Shown here: positions 15,908-37,493 of the stretch, one piece after another | Layout: each line of letters begins with the position of its first letter | Position numbering within the stretch: the first letter of the stretch is position 1 | From: Pseudomonadota bacterium | Lineage (GTDB): Bacteria; Pseudomonadota; Alphaproteobacteria; Micropepsales; Micropepsaceae | Length of the DNA stretch: 64,000 nucleotides | Direction of reading: 5' to 3' | Assembly (NCBI GenBank): GCA_016201105.1 | Contig: JACQDN010000009.1 | Span: forward strand, 1-64,000 | Notes under the pieces: generated by a model | Told to the model about the DNA's origin: nothing | Databases searched by the model: none | What the model saw: only the letters and a program-made list of their open reading frames with translations | Program-made: the position numbers and the translations under genes

Positions 15908-17365
15908 ATGATAGGTATCACGTCGTATGGCGCTTACATTCCGCGTCTGAGACTTCAGCGTAAAGCCGTCGCTCAAGCCAATGCCTGGTTCGCGCCGGGG
16001 CTGCTCGGCGGGGCCAAGGGCGAACGCTCAATGGCGAATTGGGACGAAGATGCCGTCACCATGGCGGTGGAAGCGGCCCGTGATTGCCTTCCCGCCGCCG
16101 ATCCCATCAAAGACCGCGCCTTTGTGGATGCCGTCTATTTCGCTTCGACCACCATGCCGTTTTCCGATCGGCAGAACGCAGGCATCGTGGCGCAAGCGCT
16201 CAGCCTTCCCGAAAGTCTTTCCGTCGTCGACGTCACGTCTTCGCAGCGCTGCGGCACCTCCGCCTTGCTCGCCGCCCTCGACGCGGTGAAGTCGGGCCGG
16301 GTGAAGTCGCCGCTCGTCGTCGCCGGCGAAAAGCGCAAGGCCCGTGCCGCATCCTCGCAAGAACTCGCCTTTGGCGATGCCGCCGCGGCACTGGCGCTTG
16401 GAAACAATGGGGTCATCGCGAAAATCCTCGGCAGTCACTCACTCACCATCGATTTCGTCGATCATTTCCGCGGCGAGAGCGAAGAGTACGACTACGGTTG
16501 GGAGGAACGCTGGATCCGCGACGAGGGCTACAGCAAGATCGTTCCCAAAGCGGTGAAGGCGCTGCTCGAAGATGCCGGCGCACGGGGTTCCGATATCGCG
16601 CATTTCATTTTGCCCTGTCCTTTTGCGAAGCTCGATCAGACGCTCGCCAAGCTGTGTGGAATCGACCCCGCGAAAGTGCGCGACAATCTTGCGGCCACTG
16701 TCGGCGATGCCGGCGCGGTACAGGTCTTGCTCATGCTGGTCCACACGCTGGAAAGCGCAAAACCCGGCGACAAGATTCTCGTCGTCCAATTCGGCCAGGG
16801 CTGCGACGCGCTGCTGTTCGAGGTCACGCCCCACATCGGTGAATTGAAAAAGCGCGGCGGGGTGTCCGGTTCGCTCGCAAGGCGCAAGGAAGAAACCAAT
16901 TACAACAAATTCCTCGGCTTCAACGGGTTGATCGATCTCGAGAAGGGGATGCGCGCCGAAGTCGACAAGCGCACCGCGCTGACCACGCTCTACCGCAAGA
17001 ATGACATGCTGATGGGGCTTGTCGGCGGCAAATGCCGCGTCTGCGGTACGGCGCAATTTCCGCGCACGCGCATCTGCGTCAATCCGAACTGCAAGGAAGT
17101 TGACAGCCAGGATCCTTTCAGCTTCGCGGAAAGTGCAGGGACGGTCCTGTCCTGGTCGGCGGACTTTCTGACCTACTCGCTATCTCCGCCCAGCCACTAT
17201 GGCATGATCACCTTCGCGGATGGCGGACGGTTCATGGCCGACATCACCGATGTAGAGCAAGGTCAGATCGATTCCGGGACCAAGGTGCGCATGGTGTTCC
17301 GCATCAAGGATTTCGACGAGAAGCGCGGCTTCCGCCGCTACTTCTGGAAAGCAGTGCCGGTCTAG
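15908..17365 (+). CDS. HMG-CoA-synthase-like thiolase-fold protein fused to a DUF35 zinc-ribbon/OB domain
   Basis: A 485-residue fusion. Residues 1-330 have the thiolase/HMG-CoA-synthase fold with the nucleophile Cys115 in SSQRCGTSA. Residues about 375-485 form a DUF35 domain: a zinc ribbon (CRVCGTAQFPRTRICVNPNC) and an OB fold. In archaea a separate DUF35 protein links acetoacetyl-CoA thiolase to HMG-CoA synthase. Aligned by eye, the catalytic Glu of HMG-CoA synthase falls on Thr82 and the His on Pro236 (LPCPFAKL), so only the Cys remains and a standard HMG-CoA synthase reaction is doubtful. An SCP2-type thiolase lies 10 kb away. It is divergent from the FkbM gene. Confidence 0.88.
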   Translation: MIGITSYGAYIPRLRLQRKAVAQANAWFAPGLLGGAKGERSMANWDEDAVTMAVEAARDCLPAADPIKDRAFVDAVYFASTTMPFSDRQNAGIVAQALSLPESLSVVDVTSSQRCGTSALLAALDAVKSGRVKSPLVVAGEKRKARAASSQELAFGDAAAALALGNNGVIAKILGSHSLTIDFVDHFRGESEEYDYGWEERWIRDEGYSKIVPKAVKALLEDAGARGSDIAHFILPCPFAKLDQTLAKLCGIDPAKVRDNLAATVGDAGAVQVLLMLVHTLESAKPGDKILVVQFGQGCDALLFEVTPHIGELKKRGGVSGSLARRKEETNYNKFLGFNGLIDLEKGMRAEVDKRTALTTLYRKNDMLMGLVGGKCRVCGTAQFPRTRICVNPNCKEVDSQDPFSFAESAGTVLSWSADFLTYSLSPPSHYGMITFADGGRFMADITDVEQGQIDSGTKVRMVFRIKDFDEKRGFRRYFWKAVPV

Positions 17366-17431: not shown

Positions 17432-18124
17432 CTAGTTCTGTGGCGTTGTGTTCGACGCGCGATGCGATTTTTTTGAGGTGGTGGATTTCTTCGGCGCCGT
17501 CGAAGAGTCGTTCTGACCGGCGGAGGCATTGGCGTCAACGCTCGCGTTGGCGCTGGCGTTCGCATTGACGCTGTTCGCCGCATTCGTCGCCTGATCGACG
17601 GTGCCGTTCGCCGTATTCTCCGTTGTAGCCGCCGCGCTGTTGACTGTGCTGTTTGCCGTCCAGAGCGTGCTGTCGGTCGTCTGCTGCGCCGGTCCAGTCA
17701 CTGCGGAGGAATCGGTGGTCGCATTCGCCGTTCCGTTCACAGTCGCGTTTGCCGGTCCCGCGTTCACAGTCGTACCGGTGGAGGTGCTGGTGTTCGTCGA
17801 ACTGGCCGTATTGAGAGCGCTGTCGGCTGTCGAGCGCGCCGTATCCTGCGTGGATTGCGCCGTGCTGTTCGCGGTATCCTCAGCCTGTTGCGTAGTCTTC
17901 TTGGCTTTGTCGGTCGTGCCGGAAAGATCGGCATTGCCGTGAATGTTGCCGTTCAGATTGCCATTGGTCGTAACGCTCGGCGGCATCGTGGACTGACTAA
18001 TCCCGATATTGCTTCCCAGTCCCCCGCCACCGCCTAGCAAGCCGCCCGCGAAGGCCGGCGATGCGAGTGCCACAGCACCGCAGAGCAGGGCCGCCCGAAT
18101 GGTCCAATGATTTGATTTGGTCAT
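17432..18124 (-). CDS. Exported low-complexity Asn/Thr/Ala/Ser-rich protein
   Basis: A 230-residue protein of unknown function. The ATG at 18124 has GAGGA eight bases upstream and starts a clear Sec signal peptide ending SPAFA. The mature part begins with a glycine cluster (GGLLGGGGGLG), then about 150 residues of degenerate Asn, Thr, Ala and Ser repeats such as TANST, NTASSTNTSTST and NANASANASVDANAS. It ends in a lysine-rich tail (KKSTTSKKS). I see no cysteine in the mature part. Such composition suits an extended, disordered surface or periplasmic protein. It has its own terminator and faces a large divergent gap. Confidence 0.75.
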   Translation of the reverse strand: MTKSNHWTIRAALLCGAVALASPAFAGGLLGGGGGLGSNIGISQSTMPPSVTTNGNLNGNIHGNADLSGTTDKAKKTTQQAEDTANSTAQSTQDTARSTADSALNTASSTNTSTSTGTTVNAGPANATVNGTANATTDSSAVTGPAQQTTDSTLWTANSTVNSAAATTENTANGTVDQATNAANSVNANASANASVDANASAGQNDSSTAPKKSTTSKKSHRASNTTPQN

Positions 18125-18357
18125 GCTGCATGTCCTCGTTTTGGTTGCGAAGGAGCAGGGCGGCGCGACCGCACTGCATGCTCCCGCAGACGAAAACGCT
18201 TGGACGTGACGGCCGTTGCGCCAAAGCCGGTCGATCGACCTGAACATTTAGCAACGAAAGCGCCTCGATTCGGCCTCAATTGCGATGCGCGGGACTTGGT
18301 CCAGCTGGCTCATGCCATCGCCGATCAACCGCAACCCTGGCGCAAGGTTCCTGCTGC

Positions 18358-27424: not shown

Positions 27425-28627
27425 ATGGCCACGGGAATCAAGGACAAAGTCGCTATTTTGGGCATGGGCTGCTCGAAGTTCGGCGAGCGCTGGGAATCGG
27501 GAGCCGAGGAGTTGATGGTCGAGGCCTATCTCGAGGCCATGCAGGACGCTGGCATCGACGTCAACCAGATCCAGGCCGCGTGGTTCTCGACCGCGATGCC
27601 CGAACAGCATGTCGGCAATGGCGGCACACCGATGTCGGTCGCCTTGCGGCTTCCCAACATTTCGGTCACGCGGGTCGAGAATTTCTGCGCCTCGGGTTCG
27701 GAAGCCTTCCGCGGCGCCGTCTACGCGGTGGCGGCCGGGGCCTGTGACATCGCACTGGCCCTCGGCGTCGAGAAGCTGAAGGACACCGGCTACGGCGGCC
27801 TGCCGCAACGCGAGAACGGCACGCTCAATCCGCTGTGGAGCGCGAACGGTTCGGCGCCGGGAAATTTCGCGCAGCTGGCGAGCGCCTACCGCGCCAAGCA
27901 CGGGGTTTCCAAAGACGATCTGAAACGCGCCATCGCGCATGTGTCGGTGAAGAGCCATGCCAACGGCACGAAGAATCCCAAAGCCCATCTGCAGAAAGCG
28001 ATCACAGAAGAGATGTGCCTCAACGCGCCGATGATCGCCGAGCCGCTGGGTCTGTTCGACTGCTGTGGCGTCTCGGACGGTGCGGCTTGCGCCATCGTGA
28101 CGACGCCGGAAATCGCGCGCGCGCTCGGCAAGAAGGATCTCATCACTGTGAAGGCGCTGCAGCTTGCGCTATCGAACGGTTTGGAGAGCCAGCACAATTC
28201 TTGGGACGGCTCTTATTTTCACACCGCGCGCATCGCTTCGAAGCGCGCCTACGAAGAAGCCGGCATCAAAGACCCGCGCAACGAAGTCTCGATGATGGAA
28301 GTGCACGATTGTTTCTCCGTCACCGAATTGGTGACGATGGAAGATCTGCACATCTCCAAGGAAGGCGAGGGCTGGAAGGACGTGATGAACGGCTTCTACG
28401 ATGCCGACGGCCAGGTGCCCTGCCAGATCGACGGCGGCCTCAAATGCTTCGGCCATCCTATCGGCGCTTCGGGCCTGCGCATGCTCTACGAGATGTATCT
28501 GCAGCTGCAAGGCAAAGCCGGCGCCCGCCAGCTCAAGAACCCGACGATCGGCATGACGCACAATCTCGGCGGCGCGCCGGCGATGAACGTGTGCTCAGTG
28601 GCGATCATCGGGGCGCAGGGAGCGTAG
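27425..28627 (+). CDS. SCP2-type thiolase / acetyl-CoA acetyltransferase family protein
   Basis: A 400-residue thiolase-fold protein. It carries the nucleophile in ENFCASGSEAFRGAVY, the late Cys/His region in MEVHDCFSVTELV and the C-terminal GGLKCFGHPIGASGLRM. The length and motif spacing fit SCP2/non-specific thiolases, which catalyse thiolytic cleavage or condensation of acyl-CoAs. In many bacteria such proteins work with a separate DUF35 protein; here the DUF35 module is fused to the HMG-CoA-synthase-like protein at 15.9 kb. It starts with ATG and stands as a single gene followed by a palindromic repeat. Confidence 0.9.
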   Translation: MATGIKDKVAILGMGCSKFGERWESGAEELMVEAYLEAMQDAGIDVNQIQAAWFSTAMPEQHVGNGGTPMSVALRLPNISVTRVENFCASGSEAFRGAVYAVAAGACDIALALGVEKLKDTGYGGLPQRENGTLNPLWSANGSAPGNFAQLASAYRAKHGVSKDDLKRAIAHVSVKSHANGTKNPKAHLQKAITEEMCLNAPMIAEPLGLFDCCGVSDGAACAIVTTPEIARALGKKDLITVKALQLALSNGLESQHNSWDGSYFHTARIASKRAYEEAGIKDPRNEVSMMEVHDCFSVTELVTMEDLHISKEGEGWKDVMNGFYDADGQVPCQIDGGLKCFGHPIGASGLRMLYEMYLQLQGKAGARQLKNPTIGMTHNLGGAPAMNVCSVAIIGAQGA

Positions 28628-34394: not shown

Positions 34395-35399
34395 TCATAA
34401 CATTCCGTGAAATATTAAGTTCACGAGGTCGATTTCCGTTTCGGAGGATCGCCGCCCGATGGCGGCACGCTCCACCGAGCCGTCCACCCGGAAACCCTGA
34501 TACATGCTCATGCACATGATGCCCCATTTGAGCGAGCCATAGACGATCCAGGTGCGCGCCTCGTCGAGACTGACATCGCCGCCGCCGGCGGCTTTGTAGC
34601 CCGCCAGCAGATCGGGAAGCTCGCCGAATCCGCCGACAACCTTCTCGGCCACGCCGAAACGCCACGAATTGGTGCAGATCCAGCCGATGTCTTCCAGCGG
34701 ATCGCCGATATGCGTCAACTCCCAATCGAGCGCCGCTTCCACGCCGTCGGGTGAAATCAAGAGATTGCCGTGCCGAAAATCGCCATGCACGAGCGTCTGG
34801 CGCTTGGCCTCAGCCATGCGCGGCTCCAGCCATTTGAGCGCATAATCGAACATCGGATGCGGATAGCCGTAGCTGTCGTAGAGATCGCGATAGCGGCGAA
34901 GCTGGATGGGTCCGTCGATCACGGGGAGAATATCGCGCAACGGTTCTTTGTCGACGGCGTGAATGCGGGCGAGAATTTCTCCGCATTGAAAGGCAAGCTT
35001 CGGCCGCACGGCATCGAATTCGGGATCGCGCAGGATTTTTCGCGCGATGGTTTCGCCCGGCAGCCGGTCCATGACGTAACCCTGGCCGACGCCGTCTTCG
35101 TCCTTCAGCACATAGCGCACGCCCGGCGCTTTCACACCTGCCTTGCGCGAGGCTTCGATCACGATGGCTTCCGTCGTCAGCGGAACCGCGGCCGAGCCCT
35201 CCGTCACCCGCTTTCCACCGCCGGGACTGCGCCGCAGGATGAGAGGCTCGGACTTGCCGTCCATGAGCGCATCAAACGACCAGGTCTCCTGGCTGGCGCC
35301 GCCGGAGAGCCGTGTGATGTTCGTCACGTGCTCGAAACCGGCGATCGCTTTGACGAGCGCGACTTCGAAGGGTAACAAAAAATCTGGGGCCATGGTCAT
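34395..35399 (-). CDS. Aminoglycoside-phosphotransferase-like family protein (phosphotransferase)
   Basis: A 334-residue kinase-like protein of the APH/choline-kinase superfamily. Nucleotide-binding LSGGASQETWSF is near the N-terminus; the catalytic loop is TLVHGDFRHGNLLISPDG, and the metal-binding Asp follows in LDWELTHIGDPLEDIGW. In related bacteria and in the human ACAD10/ACAD11 fusions such domains act with acyl-CoA dehydrogenases, possibly phosphorylating 4-hydroxy acyl groups. The neighbour DUF6285 fits this context, although the acyl-CoA dehydrogenase at 44 kb is not adjacent. Start ATG at 35399 (a second at 35393). Confidence 0.9.
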   Translation of the reverse strand: MTMAPDFLLPFEVALVKAIAGFEHVTNITRLSGGASQETWSFDALMDGKSEPLILRRSPGGGKRVTEGSAAVPLTTEAIVIEASRKAGVKAPGVRYVLKDEDGVGQGYVMDRLPGETIARKILRDPEFDAVRPKLAFQCGEILARIHAVDKEPLRDILPVIDGPIQLRRYRDLYDSYGYPHPMFDYALKWLEPRMAEAKRQTLVHGDFRHGNLLISPDGVEAALDWELTHIGDPLEDIGWICTNSWRFGVAEKVVGGFGELPDLLAGYKAAGGGDVSLDEARTWIVYGSLKWGIMCMSMYQGFRVDGSVERAAIGRRSSETEIDLVNLIFHGML

Positions 35400-35408
35400 T
35401 TTGGGCGG

Positions 35409-37493
35409 TCATCCCGTACGCAAGTAACGCACGGCTTCGTCTCTCTCGAAAAGATAGAGCAGAACGCGCAACGCTTCACCTCGCCGCGACTTCAGGTCCG
35501 GATCCTGGCTCAGAACGAGTTTTGCATCGTCGCGCGCTACGGAAAGCAGTTCGCCGTGGACGGCAAGGTCGGCGATTTTGAATTCGGGCATGCCACTTTG
35601 TCGGGTGCCCAGCAGTTCGCCGGCACCGCGCAGGCGCAGGTCTTCCTCAGCGATGACAAAGCCGTCGTCGGTCTCGCGCAAGGTCTTGAGCCGCGCTTTC
35701 GCCGTTTCCCCGAGCGGCCCCTGATAGAGGAGCAGGCAGCTTGATTTTGCTTCGCCGCGTCCCACGCGCCCGCGCAATTGGTGAAGCTGCGCAAGACCGA
35801 AGCGCTCGGCGTGCTCCACCACCATGATGGTGGCTTCGGCAACATCGACTCCTACTTCGATCACGGTGGTTGCCACAAGAACGGAGGTCTCGCCCACCTT
35901 GAATTTGGCCATAGCGGTATCGCGCTCCGCCGCTTTCATCTTGCCGTGGACGAGGCCGACCCGCGCGCCCAAGGCTTTGCGCAGTTCCGTCGCCCGTTCT
36001 TCGGCGGCCGCGAGATCGCTCTTCTCCGATTCCTCCACCAGCGGACACACCCAGTAAGCGCGCGCGCCCTTGGCGATGGCGCGGCGCAAATGATCGACCA
36101 CTTCGTTCAATCGTTCGGCGGATAGCACGCGTGTTTCCACCGGCTTGCGTCCCGGCGGGCGTCCGGTCAACCGCGAGACATCCATGTCGCCATAAGCAGT
36201 CAACGCGAGCGTGCGGGGAATCGGTGTCGCCGTCATTACCAGCACGTCGACGGGCTTTTCACCTTTGCCTTGCAGCTGCATGCGCTGATGCACGCCGAAG
36301 CGGTGCTGCTCGTCGACCACCGCGAGCGCGAGATCGTGGAATTGTACGTCTTCGGAAAAGATCGCGTGCGTGCCCGCCAGAATATCGATTTCACCGCTAG
36401 CGAGTGCTTTTAGAACAACTTCGCGGGGCGACCCGCGTTCGCGCCCGGTGAGGATCGCCATGCGAATGCCGGCGGCATTGGCGAGCGGCTCAAGCGAAGC
36501 CATGTGTTGGCGCGCCAGAATCTCCGTCGGCGCCATCAGGGCGCCTTGCCCGCCGGCTTCCACCGCGTTCAGCAAGGCGAGCATCGCGACAATGGTTTTG
36601 CCCGCGCCTACGTCGCCTTGCAGCAGCCGCAGCATCCGCGCCGGTGTGGCCATGTCGGCTTCGATTTCGGTGAGAGCCGTTTCCTGGGCTGACGTCAGGG
36701 CAAAGGGCAGGGCCGCGAGCGCTTTTTTCTTCAAATGACCGTCGCCCTTGATGGTGCGGCCTTTGATGCCGCGCATCCGTGCGCGGATCAGGACCAGAGC
36801 GAGCTGATTGGCGAGCAATTCGTCATAGGCAAGCCGCATTCGCGCCGGCGCTTCCGGCAAAAGATCTTTCTCGCGCGTCGGCGTATGTGCGATCTGCAGC
36901 GCTTCATCAAAGGCGGTCCAGCTTCGCTGCTTGCGGAACGCCTCATTCAACCATTCGGGCACGACCGGCACTTTTTCCACCGCCGCGCGAATGGCCTTCG
37001 CCAAGACTTTGCCGGCCAGGTTTTCCGTGAGCCGATACACCGGCTCCTGCATCGGAAAAGTCGTCGCCTCTTCCGGCGAGAGCACGTGATCGGGATGAGG
37101 CATCTGCAGACGGTTTTTGAATTTCTCGATCCGCCCGCTGACGATGCGTTTGCCGCCGACGGGCAGCATGCGCTTCAAGTGATCGGCATAGGCATGGAAG
37201 AAAACGAGTTCGATCGCCGCGGTGTCGTCGGAGCAGCGCACGCGATAGGGCTGACGGCGGTCATGCGAGGGCACGTGATCGAGCACATTCACCGCGACCG
37301 TCGCGATACGGCCCAATTCGGCTTCGATGAGTTTGGGGCGATAGCTCCGGTCGATGATCCCGCTGGGCAAATCGAGGACGAGATCGACCAGCCGCGTTCC
37401 CGCCACCTTGGCGATGAGTTTTTCCACCTTCGGGCCGACGCCCGGCAGCGTGCGTGTCTCGGCAAAAAGCGGAAAGAGAATCGAAGGCCGCAT
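35409..37493 (-). CDS. recG: ATP-dependent DNA helicase RecG
   Basis: A 694-residue helicase that remodels stalled forks and branched DNA. The N-terminal wedge/OB domain (LPGVGPKVEKLIAKVAG) is followed by the helicase core with Walker A GDVGAGKTIVAMLAL, the DEQHRFG box and the motif TATPIPRTLALTAYGDMD. QLRGRVGRG is in the second RecA domain and the C-terminal signature is LLGTRQSGMPEFKIADL. Length is normal. It is divergent from sdhE, with a palindromic repeat between them. Confidence 0.98.
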   Translation of the reverse strand: MRPSILFPLFAETRTLPGVGPKVEKLIAKVAGTRLVDLVLDLPSGIIDRSYRPKLIEAELGRIATVAVNVLDHVPSHDRRQPYRVRCSDDTAAIELVFFHAYADHLKRMLPVGGKRIVSGRIEKFKNRLQMPHPDHVLSPEEATTFPMQEPVYRLTENLAGKVLAKAIRAAVEKVPVVPEWLNEAFRKQRSWTAFDEALQIAHTPTREKDLLPEAPARMRLAYDELLANQLALVLIRARMRGIKGRTIKGDGHLKKKALAALPFALTSAQETALTEIEADMATPARMLRLLQGDVGAGKTIVAMLALLNAVEAGGQGALMAPTEILARQHMASLEPLANAAGIRMAILTGRERGSPREVVLKALASGEIDILAGTHAIFSEDVQFHDLALAVVDEQHRFGVHQRMQLQGKGEKPVDVLVMTATPIPRTLALTAYGDMDVSRLTGRPPGRKPVETRVLSAERLNEVVDHLRRAIAKGARAYWVCPLVEESEKSDLAAAEERATELRKALGARVGLVHGKMKAAERDTAMAKFKVGETSVLVATTVIEVGVDVAEATIMVVEHAERFGLAQLHQLRGRVGRGEAKSSCLLLYQGPLGETAKARLKTLRETDDGFVIAEEDLRLRGAGELLGTRQSGMPEFKIADLAVHGELLSVARDDAKLVLSQDPDLKSRRGEALRVLLYLFERDEAVRYLRTG

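Follow-up and report, generated by a model that had tools for sequence, protein, structure and literature searches.

A pair of genes in the window (the whole 64,000-nucleotide stretch of DNA analysed) probably encodes a two-gene form of the thiolase/DUF35/HMG-CoA synthase (HMGCS) assembly, in which a dead PhlA/PhlB-type fusion would accompany a working thiolase in the thiolytic cleavage of 3-ketoacyl-CoA; we assign this reading a probability of about 0.75. The first gene (15908..17365, forward strand, ATG start) encodes a fused pseudo-HMGCS and DUF35 protein of 485 amino acids. An HMGCS/PhlA-like thiolase-fold domain, delimited by alignments and by conservation among 106 fused proteins, spans residues 1 to 343 approximately (15908..16936, forward strand), and a DUF35 domain consisting of a zinc ribbon and an OB fold spans residues 365 to 485 approximately (17000..17362, forward strand). 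The N-terminal two thirds matched Pfam ACP_syn_III_C at 32.6 bits (cut-off 26.6), and the protein scored 205 bits against NCBIfam PRK04262 and 146.8 bits against TIGR00748, below the respective cut-offs of 244 and 353.35. At the C-terminus, Pfam OB_ChsH2_C was matched at 31.8 bits, over its cut-off of 27.1, and zf-ChsH2 at 21.1 bits, slightly under its cut-off of 23.2. A profile of the fused family, compared with solved sequences, matched PhlA chains best (157 and 150 bits), followed by archaeal HMGCS (130.7 bits) and MucABC (111 bits), and its DUF35 part matched 6esq_E and PhlB, so that a DUF35 component is recognizable both by Pfam and by profile.

The predicted fold agrees with these matches. 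An AlphaFold2 model of the fused protein, computed from the window protein and 40 relatives from genome contigs, had a pLDDT of 87.9 and a pTM of 0.90. Superposition of this single-chain model, a check that the original prediction had proposed, gave 6esq_I, the HMGCS chain of the archaeal thiolase/HMGCS/DUF35 complex, as the best VIA-align match (Z 42.4, 331 residues, 2.3 A), followed by the PhlA chains of 9skh (Z 41.1) and 5mg5 (Z 40.5), a MucABC chain (Z 38.2) and bacterial HMG-CoA synthases (Z 35.2 or less). Foldseek ranked the PhlA-type chain 9skh_C first and 6esq_I second. The fused protein thus resembles an HMGCS/PhlA-like subunit in sequence (157 bits) as well as in fold (Z 40-42), and by these matches its N-terminal domain is a thiolase fold of the HMGCS/FabH group.

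The active site of this domain has been erased. Three alignments (phmmer, family profile and MAFFT, the last taking in two PhlA chains and MtHMGCS of 6ESQ) placed Gln113 (16244-16246, forward strand) without gaps on the HMGCS nucleophile, Cys114 of 6ESQ chain I. The Glu column corresponds to Thr81 (16148-16150, forward strand) and the His column to Pro236 (16613-16615, forward strand), where we take the His of 6ESQ to be the catalytic His of HMGCS. Among the 106 fused proteins the nucleophile column holds Gln in 79, Leu in 21, Met in three and Ile, Arg or His in one each, with Cys in none; the Glu column holds Thr in 104 and Ser in two, and the His column Pro in 104 and Ala or Ser in one each. 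In PhlA, the Cys position of HMGCS is reported as Gly115 and the Glu position as Cys83 (PMC6392133); our alignments put Gly115 in the Gln113 column and Cys83 in the Thr81 column of the fused protein. With the Cys, Glu and His columns all changed, none of the three HMGCS catalytic residues is left as judged from the alignments, and the domain is a predicted pseudo-HMGCS in the condition of PhlA, not a partial-triad enzyme. The original prediction was borne out in the absence of the catalytic Glu and His and in the position of the His column at Pro236; its Glu column, set at Thr82, moves to Thr81, since the FASTTMP motif starts at residue 78. Its central claim, that Cys115 (16250-16252, forward strand) is a retained nucleophile, fails, and we rejected this candidate because the residue lies two positions past the Cys column and is replaced by Ala in 85 of the 106 proteins. 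The counterpart of Cys115 is Ala116 in 6ESQ and a Ser in PhlA.

The surroundings of the lost nucleophile are partly conserved: Asp108, five residues before Gln113, is kept in 106/106 fused proteins, position 114 is Arg (73/106) or Lys (33/106), and the GTSAL stretch after Gln113 is common to the window protein and PhlA. Apart from Ala, the Cys115 column holds Cys in 13 proteins, Ser in seven and Gly in one. The 13 Cys rows comprise the window and two genomes of its genus (L008 and L012), L042 with a motif identical to that of L012, six rows sharing a Caulobacter-type motif, of which five bear the title Caulobacter, and three rows with OCS116 or PS1 in the title; another relative from the same genus, L017, has Ala. 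Six additional fused proteins (from Sphingopyxis, Rhodococcus, Haladaptatus, M. avium, Streptomyces and Sphingobium) likewise had no Cys at the nucleophile column, the Streptomyces protein showing a gap there. In the Sphingopyxis plasmid locus L141, a His is present at the HMGCS His column and Cys and Glu are absent; its placement in the tree is uncertain owing to a long branch.

The 106 rows include the window and exclude partial relatives (L021, L027, L028, L031, L032 and L033), overlapping or repeated loci (L004, L007 and L034) and weak matches (L035 and L036), with the plasmid loci L141-L146 aligned apart; some rows are near-duplicates (e.g. L044 lies in genome G020), and the rows are therefore not independent. 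The four zinc-ribbon cysteines (Cys376, Cys379, Cys390 and Cys395) are all present in the window protein and in 62/106 fused proteins, the window counted. As a separate observation, Cys379 and Cys390 are both replaced in 43/106 fused proteins, the window not among them (e.g. L022, L037, L038, L052, L053, L055-L064, L073 and L082), and the DUF35 zinc site has therefore been lost there with the fusion persisting.

Matches to the fused protein were found in 23/100 relative genomes, and at least 544 of the 592 stretches picked out of the genome collection by a sequence pattern carry a gene for a relative. The fusion of an HMGCS-like part with DUF35 is a real family, and the open reading frame, the Pfam and NCBIfam matches and this spread all agree with the fusion as originally called at this locus. 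The proposed phylogeny of the family was run as a quick tree of 41 rows, unrooted (displayed with an arbitrary root), with three PDB rows and several long branches; it split archaeal HMGCS and two PhlA chains from the fused family (SH-aLRT 96). With PhlA on the archaeal HMGCS side of this split, the tree hints, faintly, that the HMGCS site may have been lost separately in the fused family and in PhlA. One genome of the window's genus (G028) carries only a divergent fused protein (L029), with 37-38 % identity to that of the window and directly adjoined by its thiolase (64 %); this pair is possibly a second lineage acquired separately.

The second gene (27425..28627, forward strand) encodes a thiolase of 400 amino acids that scored 708 bits against NCBIfam PRK06157 (cut-off 403). 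Its Cys88 (27686-27688, forward strand), its HDCF motif from His294 to Phe297 (28304-28315, forward strand) and its GHP His344 (28454-28456, forward strand) align with the Cys, HDCF and GH motifs of archaeal acetoacetyl-CoA thiolase and are intact in 80/80 thiolases, a count that required at least 350 aligned residues (more than 380 for the genome-search loci and the first five plasmid loci) and left out the partial thiolases of L015, L063, L079, L083 and L109. HDCF is described as the motif of SCP-2 thiolases, with YDHF or YDCY in its place in the steroid aldolases Ltp2 and Sal (PMC12329534). Among solved structures, the thiolase matched 7yvy, an acetyl-CoA acetyltransferase, at 208.7 bits, the acetoacetyl-CoA thiolase 6esq_A at 184.7 bits, BbsB at 155.7 bits and PhlC chains at 65.1 to 70.5 bits; its score against the NCBIfam BbsB model (150.3 bits) was far below the cut-off of 750. 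The partner thiolases of all five bacterial plasmid relatives scanned passed the PRK06157 cut-off, and the one haloarchaeal partner scanned passed PRK06064 instead. The AlphaFold2 model of the window thiolase was poor (pLDDT 62.3, 15 sequences). Over 80 matched pairs, the thiolase had a mean pairwise identity of 77 %, against 55 % in the HMGCS-like part and 59 % in DUF35; the greater divergence of the fused protein fits a non-catalytic partner or scaffold without a reactive site to preserve.

The fused gene and the thiolase occur together. In a sample of 289 genomes of the class, 51 (from 33 genera) carried both and all others neither, so that no genome was discordant, at cut-offs of E up to 1e-40 for the fused gene and up to 1e-110 for the thiolase (Fisher p 5e-58, a statistic that ignores phylogeny). 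A zinc alcohol dehydrogenase of the window, used as control, was present in 154/289 genomes and was itself enriched among pair genomes (43/51 vs 111/238 others, p 8e-7), so part of any such association reflects metabolic richness, a warning against small p-values; among the three genes compared (thiolase, alcohol dehydrogenase and kinase), only the thiolase was without discordant genomes. Within the window's genus, at a thiolase cut-off of 1e-60, 17/60 genomes carried both genes and 43/60 neither. At least part of both genes lay on one contig in 15 of these 17 genomes, the thiolase always following the fused gene on the same strand (15/15), and on different contigs in the remaining two. Four genomes (G097, G225, G321 and G323) had two fused and two thiolase matches each, and G141 and G255 had one extra thiolase.

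Gene order points the same way. The thiolase starts less than 300 bp downstream of the fused gene in 55/80 loci and 0.7-4.3 kb downstream in a further 15/80; the contig ends within 1.5 kb in 8/80, and the thiolase is missing despite room in 2/80. It was found in all five genomes searched, which covered both loci where room was available and three of the eight contig-end loci. The thiolase in the genome of L114 (G346:C13:6908-8104) carries one in-frame TGA, from either an assembly error or a decaying gene. Of 59 matching plasmid records, we opened 11 regions, and in all 11 the fused gene had a thiolase gene as its immediate neighbour. The two genes of the window are 10 kb apart, and in most of the genus they are likewise further apart; because the genes are adjacent in relatives and their presence sets are identical, this spacing looks like a lineage feature and not a missing connection. 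By the genetic evidence the fused protein has a constant partner, a thiolase whose catalytic residues are intact. Given identical presence sets and adjacency in relatives, this partner is very probably the SCP2-type thiolase at 27.4 kb, originally suggested with a 'perhaps'.

Genes around the pair in relatives bear on the pathway. Annotated neighbours in the 11 opened plasmid regions included an enoyl-CoA hydratase or MaoC protein in 10, SDRs in seven, a CoA ligase (AMP-binding or benzoate-CoA ligase) in six and an acyl-CoA dehydrogenase in five, with ring-hydroxylating dioxygenases, CoA-transferases and a CoA ester lyase also in some; the L040 region had SDRs and lacked hydratase, ligase and acyl-CoA dehydrogenase. 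These degradation genes favour thiolytic cleavage as the end of beta-oxidation-like routes, with substrates differing between operons. On a haloarchaeal plasmid (L143), a fused HMGCS-like/zinc-ribbon/OB protein, likewise without the nucleophile Cys, directly follows a PRK06064 thiolase, with UbiD decarboxylases and a benzoate-CoA ligase in the surroundings. Around the window's own pair we saw no beta-oxidation operon; the genes nearby include those for peptidases, a LysR regulator, an ABC transporter, an alcohol dehydrogenase, a kinase and RecG. A 271-residue open reading frame just downstream of the fused gene (17432-18247, reverse strand), whose later two thirds abound in Ser, Thr, Asn and Ala, matched no Pfam family (E up to 0.001).

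Neighbour genes were clustered over 80 loci and the window, excluding reverse-strand shadow ORFs and with many loci cut by contig ends. After the thiolase, the commonest clusters were an APH-type kinase (32/81) and RecG (21/81). In the window the APH-type phosphotransferase (34395-35399, reverse strand; PF01636, 110 bits) adjoins RecG (35409-37493, reverse strand). This kinase was present in 39/289 genomes of the class, 32 of them among the 51 pair genomes; in G108, G232 and G327 it lies about 0.5 kb or less from the thiolase. It may be the kinase of a hydroxyacyl-CoA route, for which we presume the ACAD10/11 or LvaA type as candidate, or may merely share the locale.

PhlABC already provides an example of a three-part assembly whose HMGCS-like subunit is dead. 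PhlA is described as an inactive subunit (PMC2954200): it is the inactive HMGCS-like member of the Phl(A2C2)2B4 acyltransferase, in which PhlC is catalytic, and the fused protein is in the same condition. PhlABC (PpATase) and CsATase are similarly reported to combine an inactive HMGCS-like subunit with a DUF35 subunit and a catalytic thiolase-fold subunit, the Cys and Glu of the HMGCS-like part being lost in PhlABC; there, only PhlC residues act in catalysis and a functional enzyme is obtained only upon expression of the whole phlABC operon (PMC6392133). The C88S variant of CsATase PhlC is reported as inactive (PMC12955522), and DUF35 units were noted in 2010 both as fusions to thiolase-superfamily members and as neighbours of thiolases (PMC2954200). 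In contrast to PhlABC, the A and B parts are fused in the window protein, the window thiolase is only distantly PhlC-like (65-70 bits vs 155-209 to other thiolases) and the surroundings of opened relatives look catabolic, not polyketide. The archaeal complex (6ESQ) has the same three folds and a thiolase with the same catalytic motifs (184.7 bits), but in the window the HMGCS active site is gone, DUF35 is fused to the HMGCS-like part and the genome has the MEP gene GcpE. MucABC of Streptococcus macacae (9VBO, 9VBT), a multi-component acyltransferase with PhlA-like (Z 38.2) and thiolase-like chains, is more distant (23 % identity), with separate chains in the entry. We know of no HMGCS-like part in the benzoylsuccinyl-CoA thiolase BbsAB (7PXP); its likeness to the pair is that of a catabolic thiolase with a DUF35 protein (PMC12329534). 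The steroid aldolases Sal-Shy and Ltp2-ChsH2 share the thiolase fold and DUF35 partner but have YDHF/YDCY, not HDCF, and their DUF35 is carried by a hydratase and not by a pseudo-HMGCS (PMC12329534).

Several other readings of the pair were weighed against this background. The complex might run in the condensing direction, making a biosynthetic 3-ketoacyl-CoA with the dead HMGCS as product holder; the archaeal complex belongs to the mevalonate pathway (PMC6392133), and the presence of the pair in 1.4 Mb genomes (e.g. G108, G232 and G327) suggests a core role. We consider this unlikely, with the pull of an active HMGCS gone and the genes near opened relatives mostly those of acyl-CoA degradation. 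A CoA-independent Friedel-Crafts C-acyltransferase like PhlABC/CsATase, acylating a phenolic compound, would suit an HMGCS-like half closest to PhlA chains in the PDB, yet the thiolase half is far nearer 7yvy, 6esq_A and BbsB than PhlC chains, and no polyketide synthase was seen in the 11 opened annotated stretches, whose gene tables are incomplete; the chance of such an activity seems slim. The retro-aldolase alternative, cleavage of a 3-hydroxyacyl-CoA in the manner of Sal-Shy or Ltp2-ChsH2, draws on the description of DUF35-thiolase-fold pairs of this kind as steroid side-chain aldolases (PMC12329534). It is very improbable given HDCF and Cys88 in 80/80 thiolases, where the aldolases have YDHF or YDCY with a catalytic Tyr, and we rejected it on this motif.

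Two readings would leave the HMGCS-like domain active. It might have its own activity, retained or newly gained, for instance via Cys115 or the neighbouring Arg/Lys, and the constancy of Arg/Lys at position 114 (73/33) and of Thr at Thr81 (104), together with the Cys115 of 13 of the 106 proteins, could be taken that way; but the predominance of Ala in the Cys115 column, even in the same-genus L017, and the alignment of Cys115 with Ala116 of 6ESQ leave this little credence. A true mevalonate-pathway HMG-CoA synthase is scarcely conceivable: the best NCBIfam matches of the fused protein are HMGCS models, but it lacks the three catalytic residues, its scores stay under the curated cut-offs (PRK04262 and TIGR00748) and its genome holds GcpE of the MEP route (477 bits), so a mevalonate role is not needed. 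We rejected this candidate on those three grounds, and to this extent the original view of a protein different from ordinary HMG-CoA synthase stands. The accompanying proposal of a condensation or acyl transfer carried out by the fused protein itself does not, with the triad absent and Cys115 misplaced and unconserved.

The thiolytic assembly remains our preferred reading. A catalytically dead PhlA-type subunit would be joined to a PhlB-type DUF35 subunit in one protein, which would bind the thiolase encoded at 27425-28627 as its obligate partner in a putative physical complex. The reaction chemistry most likely belongs to the thiolase, with its residues intact in 80/80, and would proceed through Cys88, the cysteine of HDCF and the histidine of GHP. 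The role of the fused protein would be to hold the complex together and, probably, to contribute to the pocket for CoA and substrate. The reaction would most likely be thiolytic cleavage of a branched, aromatic or otherwise unusual 3-ketoacyl-CoA at the end of a beta-oxidation-like route, the cleaving direction being favoured by the genes around the pair in relatives. A wider version is possible, if doubtful, in which the former HMG-CoA synthase has become a substrate-gating and CoA-holding module of a widespread degradative thiolase complex, possibly in a hydroxyacyl-CoA route with the APH-type kinase, its site perhaps lost separately from that of PhlA.

Among the papers listed by a literature search over titles and the starts of abstracts, with few subscription journals covered, none concerned a fused HMGCS-like/DUF35 protein with a PRK06157 thiolase. 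Public labels for the fused family include OB-fold protein, 3-oxoacyl-ACP synthase III domain protein and hypothetical protein, and one Streptomyces member is labelled HMG-CoA synthase; the partner thiolase of the family is labelled acetyl-CoA acetyltransferase. In sum, the sequence evidence indicates that the fused protein is probably not an enzyme by itself and that the thiolase probably needs it. A correct reading would fix many annotations, 51/289 sampled genomes of the class carrying the pair, and would provide a simple two-gene system for studying the dependence of some thiolases on an inactive synthase and a DUF35 domain, a puzzle that PhlABC and the archaeal complex also pose.
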